Positions 9,741 to 20,393 of a stretch of 22,260 nucleotides of DNA are shown here, piece after piece. Location of the stretch: the IMG/VR virus record IMGVR_UViG_3300006737_000252, positions 1 to 22,260 of that record; one strand, written 5' to 3'. Source of the stretch: a virus. How positions within the stretch are numbered: the first letter of the stretch is position 1; each line of letters opens with the position of its first letter. The notes beneath the pieces are model-generated. The model searched no databases, was not told the origin of the DNA, and was given only the letters and a program-made list of their open reading frames with translations. The position numbers were made by a program, and so were the translations under genes.

Positions 9741-10829
9741 TTATTTGTTAAACGGATTAGGCTCTAATGGTTTTTGTGGTTTTGTTGTTTCAACCATTTC
9801 AGTAGAGTCTTCATTTTCGTAATCTGTCCCTGCGTGATTACATTCCCATTTAACATTTGTATGCTTTGCGTTTTGATTAGTCACTGAGAATCTGCTTCCA
9901 CAAGTTTCGCATTTGTAGGTTTTTGTTTTACAAATTCTTTTCTTGCTTTCCCAATTCCATTCAGTGAATAACCATTTCTTGCCCTCTTTGATAACATCTT
10001 TAAACATGATATCAAACTCGTCATTTGGTTTTGTGCTAGTAAAATCTTTACCCGACTTACCACCAATACCATCAAGACCAACGGCTTTCGCAATTCTCTT
10101 GAACTCTTTTCCGTGTGAGCTTTTGCAATTATCTGTCGCATGAACTAACTCATGAATAAGAACTTCTAAAAAATCATAAAAGTTTTTTACTGACCATTTA
10201 AGTTTTTTCTTTTCTTCATCATGATAAAGAGTATCAATATTTATATGTATCTGCGTCATTTTTTTGTTTTGCCTGTCGCATGATTTAGTATAACAATTTC
10301 CGAGAACTTTTGATTTTCCTCTGCTTGATATATGAGATAAAGAAACATTTATATCAGACGGATTAAAAGTATCTGTTGATTTATCTAAAAATGTTTTTGC
10401 TATCATTGGGAGAATCTTATCTATTATTTTTTGTCTAATAATATGTTCAGATTCTTTCACTTTAGATTTTGATATTTCTCTTTCTTTGTTGTTTTCTATA
10501 TTATGATATTTTCTAACGTATTTAGTAATTAAAATATCATCTTTTCTATGTTGAGGATAATCTTTATTAATATAAAATTTATCCCCGAACTGTCCGAAGA
10601 ATTTAGCAAGATTATATTTGCCGTCTTCTTCTAAATGTGCAAGAAAATCATTAACAAGATTCATATCAATTCTCTTATTAAGAAATTTTTTGAACTTGTC
10701 ATTTTCTCCTGCGATTGATTGAATTATGTTTAACCCTTTAACTCTCGGCTTATTAGACGGATTGTTAAAAGGAGCATAATTTTTATAATCGCTTTTTCTT
10801 TCTGTTTTTTTTCTTGTTGCCGTTTTCAT
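9741..10829 (-). CDS. SprT-like zinc metalloprotease with C-terminal zinc ribbon
   Basis: 362 aa. The active site is LIHELVHATDN (HELVH at 226-230, third ligand probably His239 in SSHGKEF), the SprT/Spartan pattern. The C-terminal part has CETC (307-310) and Cys330/His332, forming a zinc ribbon as in SprT. The first 120 residues are basic and unassigned. SprT-like enzymes cleave DNA-bound proteins; phage versions are common in pelagiphages but their targets are unknown. The gene is second in a leftward early operon. Its leader has a 9-bp hairpin whose second arm can also pair with the ribosome binding site. Confidence 0.85.
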   Translation of the reverse strand: MKTATRKKTERKSDYKNYAPFNNPSNKPRVKGLNIIQSIAGENDKFKKFLNKRIDMNLVNDFLAHLEEDGKYNLAKFFGQFGDKFYINKDYPQHRKDDILITKYVRKYHNIENNKEREISKSKVKESEHIIRQKIIDKILPMIAKTFLDKSTDTFNPSDINVSLSHISSRGKSKVLGNCYTKSCDRQNKKMTQIHINIDTLYHDEEKKKLKWSVKNFYDFLEVLIHELVHATDNCKSSHGKEFKRIAKAVGLDGIGGKSGKDFTSTKPNDEFDIMFKDVIKEGKKWLFTEWNWESKKRICKTKTYKCETCGSRFSVTNQNAKHTNVKWECNHAGTDYENEDSTEMVETTKPQKPLEPNPFNK

Positions 10830-15643: not shown

Positions 15644-15994
15644 TTACTCCGTGATTATCCCCGATTCTCTAATCTCATACTCTATGTCATTGTATAAAGA
15701 GTTCCCTCTGTAAGTGTTTTCCATGACCTTAGACTCCTCGTTTCTTTTATAAAAAGATTCTTCTAACTCTCTATCTATTCTGACTAAATTATCTACTACT
15801 GTTGTATATACAATTTCAGACAATTCAACAATTTTTTGTTCTTTCATTTCTGCGTAAAATTCTCTCATCATCTTTTCTTCTTCTTCCCGTGTAATTGGTT
15901 TTTTTTGTGTTAACACATCTTTTTTAAATATGTTGTCGTAATTAGTGTTAAACTTCTCTTTGTTGAATTTTCTTACTCTGTCGCCTTTACTCAT
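15644..15994 (-). CDS. Early protein, 116 aa, helical, unknown
   Basis: Starts MSKGDRVRKFNKEKFNTNYD, then KKDVLTQKKPITREEEEKMM and a long amphipathic helix. GGGA before the ATG serves as binding site. A complete TGTTAACA site with TTTAAA lies inside the gene (15908-15928), encoding the residues around VLTQ. A second ATG ATG pair near 15873 follows GGAAGAAG and could start a shorter internal product. No family recognised. Confidence 0.6.
   Translation of the reverse strand: MSKGDRVRKFNKEKFNTNYDNIFKKDVLTQKKPITREEEEKMMREFYAEMKEQKIVELSEIVYTTVVDNLVRIDRELEESFYKRNEESKVMENTYRGNSLYNDIEYEIRESGIITE
15908..15928 (-). promoter_or_regulatory. TGTTAACA operator-like site, copy 13 (intragenic)
   Basis: On the minus strand TTTAAA (15923-15928), 7 bp, TGTTAACA (15908-15915) with C. 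It is the only copy wholly within a coding gene. Confidence 0.55.
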
Positions 15995-16208
15995 TAGCTT
16001 TCCCTGTTGTTAATTCTATTCTATAATTATTCCCATTTTCTTCATCTTCAACATAAACATAGCCTATGCTTATGCCATGTTTTTTTACTAACTCGTTTAT
16101 TTCTGATAACAATAAATCTGCTAAATCTGTATTTGGTAAATCATAGTCCCATGAAACCCAATACTCTCTCGGCTTATCATTCCATGCGTTAGTTTTTAAT
16201 TTACTCAT
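15987..16208 (-). CDS. Small early protein, 73 aa, unknown
   Basis: MSKLKTNAWNDKPREYWVSW begins a compact alpha/beta protein with DLPNTDLADLLLSEINELVK and GISIGYVYVEDE. A longer frame from 16265 exists, but GGGAG nine bases before the 16208 ATG, and overlap of only eight bases with the upstream gene, favour the short start. It overlaps the 116-aa gene by eight bases. Function unknown. Confidence 0.6.
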   Translation of the reverse strand: MSKLKTNAWNDKPREYWVSWDYDLPNTDLADLLLSEINELVKKHGISIGYVYVEDEENGNNYRIELTTGKANE

Positions 16209-16437
16209 CTTTAAAATCTCCCTCAAGCAATGGTTGTGCGTCATCTCCGTACTCTGTTCCGTCATAAGTAATCGTAATACCTTTTGAATATTGATATTCC
16301 TTACTCACATCTTCTATCCGTGAGTCTTGATAGATGTCTGAAACTTCTTCTTCTGTTAGCTGTTTATCACTTTCAATAGTCCATGACCTAACATCAACAG
16401 ATGATTCGCTTACTTCATATATATATTTTTCATTCAT
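16201..16437 (-). CDS. Small acidic early protein, 78 aa
   Basis: Starts MNEKYIYEVSESSVDVRSWT and is strongly acidic, with alternating beta-like and loop segments. A short, very acidic protein next to a DNA-binding gene could be a DNA mimic or partner, but this is only a guess from composition. It overlaps the winged-helix gene upstream by four bases, indicating coupling. Confidence 0.6.
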   Translation of the reverse strand: MNEKYIYEVSESSVDVRSWTIESDKQLTEEEVSDIYQDSRIEDVSKEYQYSKGITITYDGTEYGDDAQPLLEGDFKDE

Positions 16438-16682
16438 TTTTTCTTACCTTTATAAACGTATGTAGCAAAATGTGATTTTCCTACCCGAGTTTCAACGGAT
16501 TTTATATTGAAATGTACTCTTAAATTAAAAATTATTGATGATAGTCTTGTTGCTTTGTATTTTGTTATAGCTTCCCATGATGTAATAGTTTCTTTTTCCA
16601 TGAGATGTGCTAACACTTTCTCTATTTTTGTTTCGGGTTTAGACACGTTCCACCCGTTAATTATTCTGTCTTTTTTAGCCAT
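16434..16682 (-). CDS. Winged helix-turn-helix protein (HTH_39-like)
   Basis: 82 aa. KIEKVLAHLMEKETITSWEA then KYKATRLSSIIFNLRVHFNI and the wing VETRVGKSHFATYVYK match the small phage HTH family often reported as HTH_39: helix, Trp/Leu-E-A turn, recognition helix with AxRLSxxIxxLR, then a beta hairpin. DNA binding is likely; its target is unknown, and the repeated TGTTAACA sites are the obvious candidates. It overlaps the 52-aa gene before it. Confidence 0.7.
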   Translation of the reverse strand: MAKKDRIINGWNVSKPETKIEKVLAHLMEKETITSWEAITKYKATRLSSIIFNLRVHFNIKSVETRVGKSHFATYVYKGKKK

Positions 16683-16819
16683 TGGCTTCTCCTTGTTTGT
16701 TCAATACTTAAATATTGACAAACTTTTATATTCTTGTCAAGCCTTATAATGTCCCCGTATTCGTTGATGTTTTCGGTTTTGATATCTCCATATTCATGAT
16801 ATGTTATTTTTTCACTCAT
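16661..16819 (-). CDS. Small early protein, 52 aa
   Basis: Starts MSEKITYHEYGDIKTENINE and ends QWLKKTE. The ATG is preceded by AGGAGG with seven-base spacing, the strongest Shine-Dalgarno in the region, so it is almost certainly translated. It contains a short imperfect repeat (HEYGDIKTENIN / NEYGDIIRLDKNI). It overlaps the HTH gene by 22 bases and is the first gene downstream of the structured RNA array. Function unknown. Confidence 0.65.
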   Translation of the reverse strand: MSEKITYHEYGDIKTENINEYGDIIRLDKNIKVCQYLSIEQTRRSQWLKKTE

Positions 16820-16845
16820 TTGTTATCCTCCTATATCTCCTTGTT

Positions 16846-17343
16846 AATTTATTAAGAGATAGATAGACTAGTTTTGCTCCATACATAGTCATCTTGGTAG
16901 TCTTTATGTTGGCTTTCAAGGACTAAGAATCACCAACCATCTATGCCTACCTATCCCATACTCATGTCCATTATATCCCCATGAGCAATTCATTAAGGTG
17001 AGTGCATATTCTAGATTACACCCACCCATACATAACACTTGCGTACTCCCATGTTATGTATAATTCATTAAGGATAGATAGGTGTATGCTTGGTCTGCTT
17101 CTGTTTGCATATCCTTAGTCGCAGTCGGTATACCTACACCATTGCTCCCTATCTATCCCATTACCTAGCCGTTTTCCATTGTTTACAATTCCTTTTGTCT
17201 ATTTCACTAGGCAATTCATTAAGGATAGATAGGTTTGTAAAGTGTCTGCATACTGACCAATACAATTAATTTGTATGCTATTACCTATCTATCCCTATTA
17301 ATGCCCAATGGTTTCATCTATACGCAAGAGCCATTGTTAATAG
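16846..17343 (-). ncRNA. Four-unit structured RNA array
   Basis: Four related units on the minus strand. Each has a leading hairpin, a long outer stem and a conserved linker CTTAATGAATT (the last reads CTTAATAAATT). Outer stems: 17223-17234 with 17283-17294 (12 bp), 17072-17082 with 17148-17158 (11 bp), 16997-17004 with 17019-17026 (8 bp, different sequence, one G-U), 16856-16868 with 16945-16957 (13 bp, three G-U). Leading hairpins: 17295-17343 (7+6 bp), 17164-17211 (5 bp), 17028-17061 (10 bp) and 16961-16985 (6 bp). All stem differences are G-U on the minus-strand RNA and would be A-C on the other. No ORF of note. The array may be a stable RNA or a leader of the 52-aa gene. Confidence 0.75.
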
Positions 17344-17362
17344 TATTCTACATCTCTTTCGA

Positions 17363-17423
17363 GGTATAACTGTCCCAACTAACGACATCAATCCCTTCTC
17401 TGTGTTAACACTTTATTTTTAAA
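17363..17423 (-). promoter_or_regulatory. Promoter of the RNA array with TGTTAACA site, copy 14
   Basis: On the minus strand TTTAAA (17418-17423), 7 bp, TGTTAACA (17403-17410) with C, then TTGATG (17386-17391), 17 bp, TATACC (17363-17368). The -35 is the same hexamer as at the 75-aa gene, but only 10 bp from the site. Transcription would start near 17356, thirteen bases before the first hairpin arm. Confidence 0.55.
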
Positions 17424-18093
17424 CACATACTTTAGCTTCATATATTAAGCTAATACTTTTTTCTATTTCTCCTTTAAATTGTTCTATTGGTTTTTTTAAT
17501 TCATCATCTTTTTCATTCAGTAATGCCCATGAATATATTTCTAAATATTTTTTAAGATAATTTTCAAATTCTTCGTTTCTTTTACATTCCCAAATTTTAG
17601 TGTGATTCGGTGTCCAATTAATTAAATGAGTTTTTTCTACTCTTTCTTTGTTTTTTTGGCTTTCTAACCAACTATTCAACACCATTTGTTGCCCGTATAT
17701 TTGAGGAAGCTTATCTTTTGGTAAATCTTTATAACATGACTTGCCACCCATACTGCATTTGACTTCAAGAATACAGCTAAAATCTGATTTTATCCCGTCA
17801 GGAGTGCTACTTAGACTAATTGTTTCTTCTTGGTCTAAATCGAGCCAATTTGGGACGGAAAACGACTTTTGTTTATCGAGTATATAGTTTGGCATTTCTT
17901 CTGCCCATACAACCCATTCTGCAATTCCATGCTTTTCGTGAAGATTCCCATAATTCATTATGTATTTTTGCCAATCTCCCTCGATTTCTCTTTCTTTTCC
18001 CTCTAAATCAAGTGCTAACTGTTCTTCCCGAGAAACATATTTTCCAAAAATATAATTTATAAAATTACTGCTTCTTAGATTTAGATTTTTCAT
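17419..18093 (-). CDS. YqaJ/lambda-type exonuclease
   Basis: 224 aa. GNLHEKHGIAEW (about 49-60), LSSTPDGIKSDFSCILEVKC with Asp99, Glu110 and Lys112, and LPQIYGQQMVLNSW (129-142) give the PD-(D/E)XK exonuclease pattern, including the QxxxQ helix of YqaJ-type recombinases. It would resect double-strand ends to 3' single strands for annealing. Its start overlaps the end of the annealing-protein gene by 29 bases, the usual pairing. The stop overlaps the TTTAAA of a TGTTAACA site. Confidence 0.8.
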   Translation of the reverse strand: MKNLNLRSSNFINYIFGKYVSREEQLALDLEGKEREIEGDWQKYIMNYGNLHEKHGIAEWVVWAEEMPNYILDKQKSFSVPNWLDLDQEETISLSSTPDGIKSDFSCILEVKCSMGGKSCYKDLPKDKLPQIYGQQMVLNSWLESQKNKERVEKTHLINWTPNHTKIWECKRNEEFENYLKKYLEIYSWALLNEKDDELKKPIEQFKGEIEKSISLIYEAKVCV

Positions 18094-18577
18094 CTTTTAT
18101 AACCTTTTTGTTTTTTATGTTTTTGACTTCTGCAATAGCTTCGGCTACTTGTTCATCTGTTGTTCTTTCAAAAGCATCGACTTTATCTGCCATTTGCAGT
18201 TTTCCGTCTTTTCCTTTTACTAAATCTGCGTCAGAATAAACTACACCACTCACATTTGTAAATTCCCTAATAACTCTGTCTTTTGCTCTTTTGATAGCCA
18301 TTGCCCAAATATAAGCATTGGTATTGTTTTTTGGGGAAGATTCCCCGTAGTCTGTATGAGTAATTCCGTCTAACGTAGCAGAGCATTTGATAACACAAAT
18401 TCCTGCTTGGCTATTAAATTCTATCTCGGTAAGTTCGTAATCTGCAATGCCTAATTTATTGGCTACTTTTAGCCAACCTCTATGCAAAAGGATAGGGCTT
18501 CCATGACAATCCCAAAATAGATTTTCGTCTAAATCGTAGGTTTCCATAAAAACTTTCGTTTCTTTATCAAATTTCAT
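18065..18577 (-). CDS. Putative single-strand annealing protein
   Basis: 170 aa. The core HGSPILLHRGWLKVANKLGI, then THTDYGESSP and MAIKRAKDRVIREFTNVSGV with VYSDADL resembles the phage annealing proteins (Erf/Rad52/Sak-like) with their conserved A-KRAKDR helix. The C-terminus is Lys-rich. The role is inferred partly from its partner: the next gene is an exonuclease with overlapping frame. AAGGAGAAAACA is an ideal binding site. The subfamily is not certain. Confidence 0.6.
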   Translation of the reverse strand: MKFDKETKVFMETYDLDENLFWDCHGSPILLHRGWLKVANKLGIADYELTEIEFNSQAGICVIKCSATLDGITHTDYGESSPKNNTNAYIWAMAIKRAKDRVIREFTNVSGVVYSDADLVKGKDGKLQMADKVDAFERTTDEQVAEAIAEVKNIKNKKVIKDEKSKSKKQ

Positions 18578-20117: not shown

Positions 20118-20393
20118 ATGGCTAAGAAACCCAACAAACAAACCCGAGAAGAATATAAAAAATGTGCGTCATTTGGTTGTGTTGTATGTGCTAAAATATA
20201 TGGGGTTTTTTCAGAATGTGAAATTCATCATTTAACGGGGGCAGGAATGGGATTGAGGAACGAAAAAAAATTTGTCGGGCTTTGTTATTTACATCATAGG
20301 GGCAAAGACGGAGTACACCATAATAAAAAAACATTCGAAGAAAAATTTGGTACACAAGAAGAACTATACGAATGGTACAAAAATAATGATTAA
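20118..20393 (+). CDS. HNH-type nuclease, Ref-like
   Basis: 91 aa. CVVC (21-24), EIHHLTGAG (His37-38), GLCYLHH (Cys56, His59-60) and GVHH give the zinc-binding HNH pattern of the Ref/DUF968-type nucleases (P1 Ref is a RecA-dependent enzyme). The terminal FEEKFGTQEELYEWY also fits. It would act in recombination with the annealing and exonuclease genes. No strong binding site; the TGTTAACA site occupies its leader. Family call fair, RecA dependence not shown. Confidence 0.75.
   Translation: MAKKPNKQTREEYKKCASFGCVVCAKIYGVFSECEIHHLTGAGMGLRNEKKFVGLCYLHHRGKDGVHHNKKTFEEKFGTQEELYEWYKNND

Follow-up and report, generated by a model that had tools for sequence, protein, structure and literature searches.

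The window, that is, the whole stretch of 22,260 nucleotides that was analysed, represents 22.3 kb of a podovirus genome. SU10-type capsid and portal genes were identified by profile matches, and the portal protein, which is LUZ24/PaP3-like, displayed 38-41% identity to those of a Manatee Spring phage and PaP3-like phages. No tRNA or tmRNA was detected in the window. A four-unit array lies on the minus strand at 16846-17388, between the minus-strand genes 17419-18093 (upstream) and 16661-16819 (directly downstream). The first-pass annotation had described about 500 gene-free bases at 16846-17343. The absence of genes was confirmed, all open reading frames inside the array being shorter than 60 aa (at most 40 aa on the minus and 59 aa on the plus strand), while the extent had to be corrected, as the first leading element starts near 17388. 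A coding origin of the array was ruled out since no reading frame spans it.

The upstream gene encodes a 224-aa protein that is exonuclease-like by motif only (PD...EVK) and gave no match in Pfam, PHROG or PDB. The downstream one is a small accessory gene of 52 aa. Genes 18065-18577 and 17419-18093 resemble an annealing-protein/exonuclease pair, neither of them having a profile match. The 170-aa product of the former may be a single-strand annealing protein; an alpha-beta-beta-beta-alpha core was predicted with moderate confidence, and comparison of the predicted fold with double-stranded-RNA-binding domains resulted in a weak match only (E = 0.003). At 20118-20393 the window encodes a protein related to the RecA-dependent nuclease Ref (Pfam RecA_dep_nuc), and a similar-looking small gene occurs in genomes of the phage group termed C below.

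In each unit a leading hairpin precedes an outer stem, whose 10-13 pairs enclose a variable interior, and the linker TTAATGAATT or a variant of it follows. All four units that had been proposed, with their leading hairpin, outer stem and linker, were found on the minus strand, to which the following coordinates refer. Leading element 1, of about 92 nt (ATGTCGTTAG...GGGCATTAAT, 17297-17388), recurs in L044, L132 and L133, and the CAATGG/CCATTG hairpin noted previously at 17304-17343 is its 3' half. In unit 1, the outer stem arms GGATAGATAGGT (5', 17283-17294) and ACCTATCTATCC (3', 17223-17234) enclose an interior of family F00 (17235-17282), followed by the linker TTAATGAATT at 17213-17222. Unit 2 begins with the leading hairpin GCCTAGTG...GGCTAGGT (17163-17212), continues with the 5' arm GGATAGATAGG (17148-17158), an F08 interior (17083-17147) and the 3' arm CCTATCTATCC (17072-17082), and ends with the same linker (17062-17071). 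The leading hairpin of unit 3, ATACATAAC...GTTATGTAT, occupies 17028-17061; its stem arms GGTGGGTGTA and TGCACTCACC are at 17017-17026 and 16997-17006, with the linker TTAATGAATT at 16987-16996. Unit 4 comprises the leading hairpin GCTCATGGGG...ACATGAGT (16960-16986), of which L068 has a near-identical counterpart, the 5' arm GGGATAGGTAGGC (16945-16957), an F03 interior (16869-16944) and the 3' arm GTCTATCTATCTC (16856-16868). Its linker (16846-16855) is the variant TTAATAAATT, after which the next gene has its ribosome-binding site (AGGAGG). The stem variants were as reported: GGATAGATAGG/CCTATCTATCC in units 1 and 2, a different sequence with pairing kept in unit 3 (two G-U pairs), and three differences in unit 4 (three G-U pairs). 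Most cassettes have an ATG (or GTG/TTG) at the 5' edge, for example just upstream of window position 17158 and in L148, which together with the 5' arm forms a start-Gly-stop minigene, ATG GGA TAG.

An exact search with the 3' arm plus linker retrieved 56 stretches from 2.9 million viral contigs and none from 257 Gb of cellular genomes. With the loci added by a second search pattern, a total of 64 public viral loci was reached, in which 117 units were catalogued (74 distinct). GenBank phages gave chance matches only and no near relatives of the array. The nine records examined carry one array per genome.

The loci sort into three phage groups, which were assigned by genes not shared between groups: A, including the window (18 loci), B (24 loci) and C (22 loci). 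Terminase, portal and capsid are unrelated between the groups; the terminases of B and C show about 39% identity and that of A none with either. Among the late genes that the groups have in common, one encodes a 143-aa protein that the window's phage shares at 90-98% identity with G012 or group B phages, the figure for AP013540 coming from 50 compared residues, and identity is lower in other group C phages. Sites of this gene are G013 9844-10275, G012 54072-54503, G024 26681-27118 and AP013540 15350-15781. The shared late gene set, with the 143-aa protein as marker, suggests that the groups have one host. This host is likely to be SAR11, judging from the group C terminase, which is 81% identical to that of the Pelagibacter phage EXVC031P Hodr. 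A search for the host by exact match in cellular genomes gave no match. Hodr is the isolate closest to group C but does not carry the cassette sequence; in front of an early gene it has a very stable, long hairpin (L190:12205-12373; -55 kcal/mol, z -5.8) whose sequence is unrelated to the cassettes.

Folding of the region beyond chance was confirmed against shuffled sequences, the minus strand giving z = -6.7 and the plus strand -4.7. For units 1-4, the minus-strand values were -6.7, -3.8, -5.1 and -3.0, and those of the plus strand -4.1, -3.3, -2.4 and -0.8. As had been supposed, no known RNA family matches the array. Rfam, permissive threshold included, gave a single weak hit to the MIR6149 microRNA model, which was rejected (wrong strand, 21 bits vs a cut-off of 100). 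In the relatives Rfam recognised tRNA only, the cassettes and the GAGGACU RNA described below being unmatched.

The outer stem evolves under compensatory change. In 25 distinct arm pairs, 99.6% of the cells are paired, vs 84% after shuffling and < 50% when slid; the percentage is inflated, as units were found partly by pairing, a bias that weighs less on the count of compensatory types. Two-sided changes occur at 8 of the 10 pairs, and the covariation score, computed on a padded arm alignment, was 0.577 vs 0.238 for shuffled arms. Identical interiors with compensated arms were observed among units of families F06, F16 and F17, the only ones for which the interior-anchored arm count was used. 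At the window's own locus, the close relative L132 carries GGATAAATAGG/CCTATTTATCC, in which an outer-stem G-C pair has become A-U with compensation on the other side.

The first-pass annotation had read every deviation from perfect pairing as G-U on the minus strand. The relatives agree, giving 40 G-U vs 3 A-C among non-Watson-Crick pairs; detection treats both alike, and chance stems from the same scan give 6 vs 7. The pairing is therefore placed on the strand of the array, and the genes are on this strand too. G-T is better tolerated than A-C in single-stranded DNA too, so that the asymmetry alone indicates single-strand pairing and not RNA. An RNA nature of the pairing strand is supported by the flanking genes, which are co-oriented with the array (45 of 46 upstream, 41 of 42 downstream), and by the gene strand being the better-folding one in 61 of 63 arrays.

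The interiors behave differently. The GTATGC/GCATA pairs noted in two of them exist, but interiors in general are no better folded than shuffles (mean z -0.3 when taken alone), and the idea that they are generally folded RNAs was rejected on average. No convincing motif common to the interiors was found. The proposed selection on the minus-strand fold is supported by the relatives, through the compensatory changes in the outer stem, the 40:3 bias and the orientation of the flanking genes; the selected fold is that of the outer stem and leading hairpins, and not of the interiors.

The interiors sort into 46 families, at least 12 of which occur in more than one phage group, with near-perfect conservation across unrelated phages. 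Cross-group matches of at least 28 nt numbered 131 and end at cassette edges. The best whole-cassette match pairs L139 (group C) with L148 (group A), identical at 86/86 nt from TG|GGATAG to TTAATGAATTAAC, that is, from just 5' of the 5' arm to just 3' of the linker. Unit 1 of the window (as L066) agrees with the group B phage L143 at 81/83 nt, from GGGATAG to the linker, and its interior is also common to L164-L166. Unit 4 agrees with the group B loci L024 and L118 at 85/86 nt from the interior through the 3' arm, and a leading element is shared by L040 (A) and L076 (B) at 98/100 nt. The units are exchangeable cassettes common to three phage groups with unrelated capsid and terminase.

Other modules are found in the same arrays. 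A genuine tRNA-Asn (GUU) sits between the same kind of linkers in three of them (L108; L140:10126-10199; L143:881-954). The first 8 nt of the unit 2 leading hairpin are the same as in the tRNA-Asn module of L140 and L143, and the common leading hairpin shares its 5' sequence GCCTAGTG with that module. The GAGGACU RNA is an 82-nt three-way junction in which P1 and P2 covary around a near-invariant core (CUUAAUGAGGACUAAA...ACCAAAUCCUCGCC), with palindrome exchanges among UCGA, CUAG, CAUG, UGCA and CGCG. Its sites include L131:5768-5855, where it takes the place that leading element 1 has in the window, L146, L194:11212-11293, L198:9586-9670 and L205:12175-12256. A model of this RNA found 27 copies in the collected loci, including the unrelated phages L194, L198, L200, L205 and L206, in which the gene-free regions look structured as well. 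Long gene-free regions with further structured-looking segments and no Rfam match surround it in L194 (10600-11200), L196, L200 and L206. A small gene of about 50 codons is likewise a mobile module: in L092, L138, L147 and L151, which belong to groups B and C, it is flanked by the same linkers, and the copies in L092 and L138 are identical at 98/98 nt.

Turnover is visible at the site itself. Relatives that match the window over long stretches, with 94-99.6% nucleotide identity, differ from it in the array found at this position: one cassette led by the GAGGACU RNA in L131, one cassette in L132 and two in L133. The small genes behind these arrays also differ. In the more distant relative L135, the array and at least five small genes (15644-16819) are both missing. 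Because of these variants and the lack of both in L135, the array is regarded as the head of a hypervariable accessory-gene block that is itself in flux. The simplest account of the exchange is that the cassettes would move by homologous recombination, with the repeated linkers and stem arms as its sites; recombination genes carried by the phage may assist.

According to PMC4503421, the promoter early stem-loops (PeSLs; Arbiol 2010, Comeau 2014) are mobile regulatory cassettes of T4-type phages, described as promoter-terminator motifs. The likeness lies in intergenic stem-loop units among small variable genes, tied to module shuffling between phages; a strict promoter stands directly before the first unit at 8 group A loci, and none above background precedes the window's array. 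The present arrays differ in having no terminator and no promoter per unit, in a phage that, with its SU10-type capsid and portal genes, is not T4-like; in combining as many as four stems, whose interiors are interchangeable, within one constant frame; and in an exchange that crosses unrelated phage groups, with tRNA and other structured RNAs among the modules. The array was not classed as a PeSL because two features that define these elements in the same source, the terminator and the T4-type genome, are missing. GOLLD and ROOL (PMC12286853) are also non-coding structured phage RNAs with tRNAs alongside, but each of them is one RNA several hundred nt long for which Rfam has a model, whereas the units here are short independent cassettes. 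The near-unchanged passage of such cassettes between three unrelated groups of ocean phages points to a previously unlisted kind of mobile, structured phage RNA.

Regarding expression, 8 of 19 strict promoters in group A lie directly 5' of the first module, and at those 8 loci the predicted transcript begins with a hairpin. For the window's array, no upstream promoter above background and no promoter per unit was detected, and no terminator-like site was found in 16600-17700. Many group B and C arrays sit between genes and not behind a promoter. In many loci, the window included, the last linker runs into a ribosome-binding site. The linker is AU-rich and contains GA|AUU, which matches the RNase E motif RN|WUU (PMC5222698). 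This match was not counted as evidence because linker variants, few in number and judged by eye, keep RN|WUU no better than chance. The tRNA modules imply cutting of at least the arrays that bear them, and processing at the linker would be argued from these tRNAs only.

It was judged about an even chance that the array, made of exchangeable RNA cassettes, is transcribed as a leader or intergenic stretch heading a block of accessory early genes in a marine podovirus. Its function, as read from the sequence, would be exerted in cis: as a structured and probably processed leader at the 5' end of the transcript, the hairpins would protect or insulate the mRNA of the small gene behind them. Structured modules, and in some arrays a tRNA, would be set free by cleavage within single-stranded, AU-rich linkers.

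The main and serious rival is that the array is processed to stable small RNAs acting in trans, which bind host proteins or RNAs, for instance as decoys against RNA-based defence, their diversity and exchange reflecting an arms race. This appears possible, with a probability well short of even. It is favoured by the number of interior families and their conservation across unrelated phages, by the tRNA-Asn and the GAGGACU RNA within the same arrays, and by the rapid turnover among near-identical phages. There is also a precedent, as phage PhiTE escapes ToxIN by expanding a pseudo-ToxI RNA array (PMC3475682). That array, like other type III toxin-antitoxin RNAs, resembles the present one in its tandem, recombining structured units of changing number; the units here, however, measure 70-160 nt and differ in length and interior, and are not identical short pseudoknot repeats. 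No ToxN-type toxin gene was found beside the array when neighbouring genes were searched with PADLOC, Pfam and PHROG, and the neighbourhood yielded no toxin-antitoxin or defence gene, which argues against the rival, as does the fact that arrays nearly always run into a gene. The interiors' lack of a shared motif and of excess fold was also weighed against it, but on balance favours neither the trans nor the cis reading. Highly identical interiors in unrelated phages are compatible with a specific trans function no less than with recent exchange.

A put-like antitermination role, with RNA elements acting on the transcribing polymerase at the start of the early gene block, seems improbable. Group A arrays do begin at the predicted transcript start, the units have two hairpins, and Hodr, a relative of group C, carries its long hairpin (z -5.8) immediately ahead of an early gene. 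Nevertheless, many group B and C arrays are intergenic with no promoter before them, and known put sites are far less variable than the array sequences.

Equally doubtful is the proposal that the cassettes are DNA elements, either attC-like single-stranded recombination sites or miniature inverted-repeat transposons, whose RNA folding is incidental. The coincidence of exchange edges with cassette edges and the mobility of the small-gene module would suit such elements, as would the G-T tolerance of single-stranded DNA. Integron attC arrays, too, have conserved ends, a variable centre, hairpins and one cassette orientation; the cassettes here, in contrast, are non-coding, and their ends show compensatory change. 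The stem sequence varies freely with pairing kept, unlike terminal repeats read by a transposase, and the arrays are co-oriented with genes and present once per genome in the nine records. The window genes, scanned by profile, include no integron integrase, and no integrase or transposase was seen beside the window's array. A transposon-like inverted-repeat element was rejected because the ends covary and are not fixed, and no regular target duplication was seen in the flanks. Neutral tandem repeats or chance palindromes without selection, to which the GATA-rich, simple-sequence arms might point, are very improbable, being contradicted by the covariation, the G-U bias, the fold z-scores and the recurrence in unrelated phages.

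The arrays show intact structured, non-coding RNA units passing between phages that have neither capsid nor terminase in common. This trading directly attests that the RNAs are worth keeping, and provides natural variants ready for asking why. Module shuffling, known for genes and for the stem-loop cassettes of T4, thereby extends to RNA cassettes of marine phages, and RNA biology gains at least one more conserved, structured RNA, the GAGGACU RNA. The array resembles mobile regulatory cassettes, and there is a real chance that it represents a new class of mobile trans-acting RNA. In its fullest form, which is unlikely though far from negligible, the unrelated phages of one marine host clade would share a pool of mobile, non-coding, fixed-frame RNA cassettes, including tRNAs and at least one new three-way-junction RNA, that are processed to stable RNAs and act in trans on host or defence factors. 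If true, this pool would be a non-coding counterpart of gene-cassette arrays.
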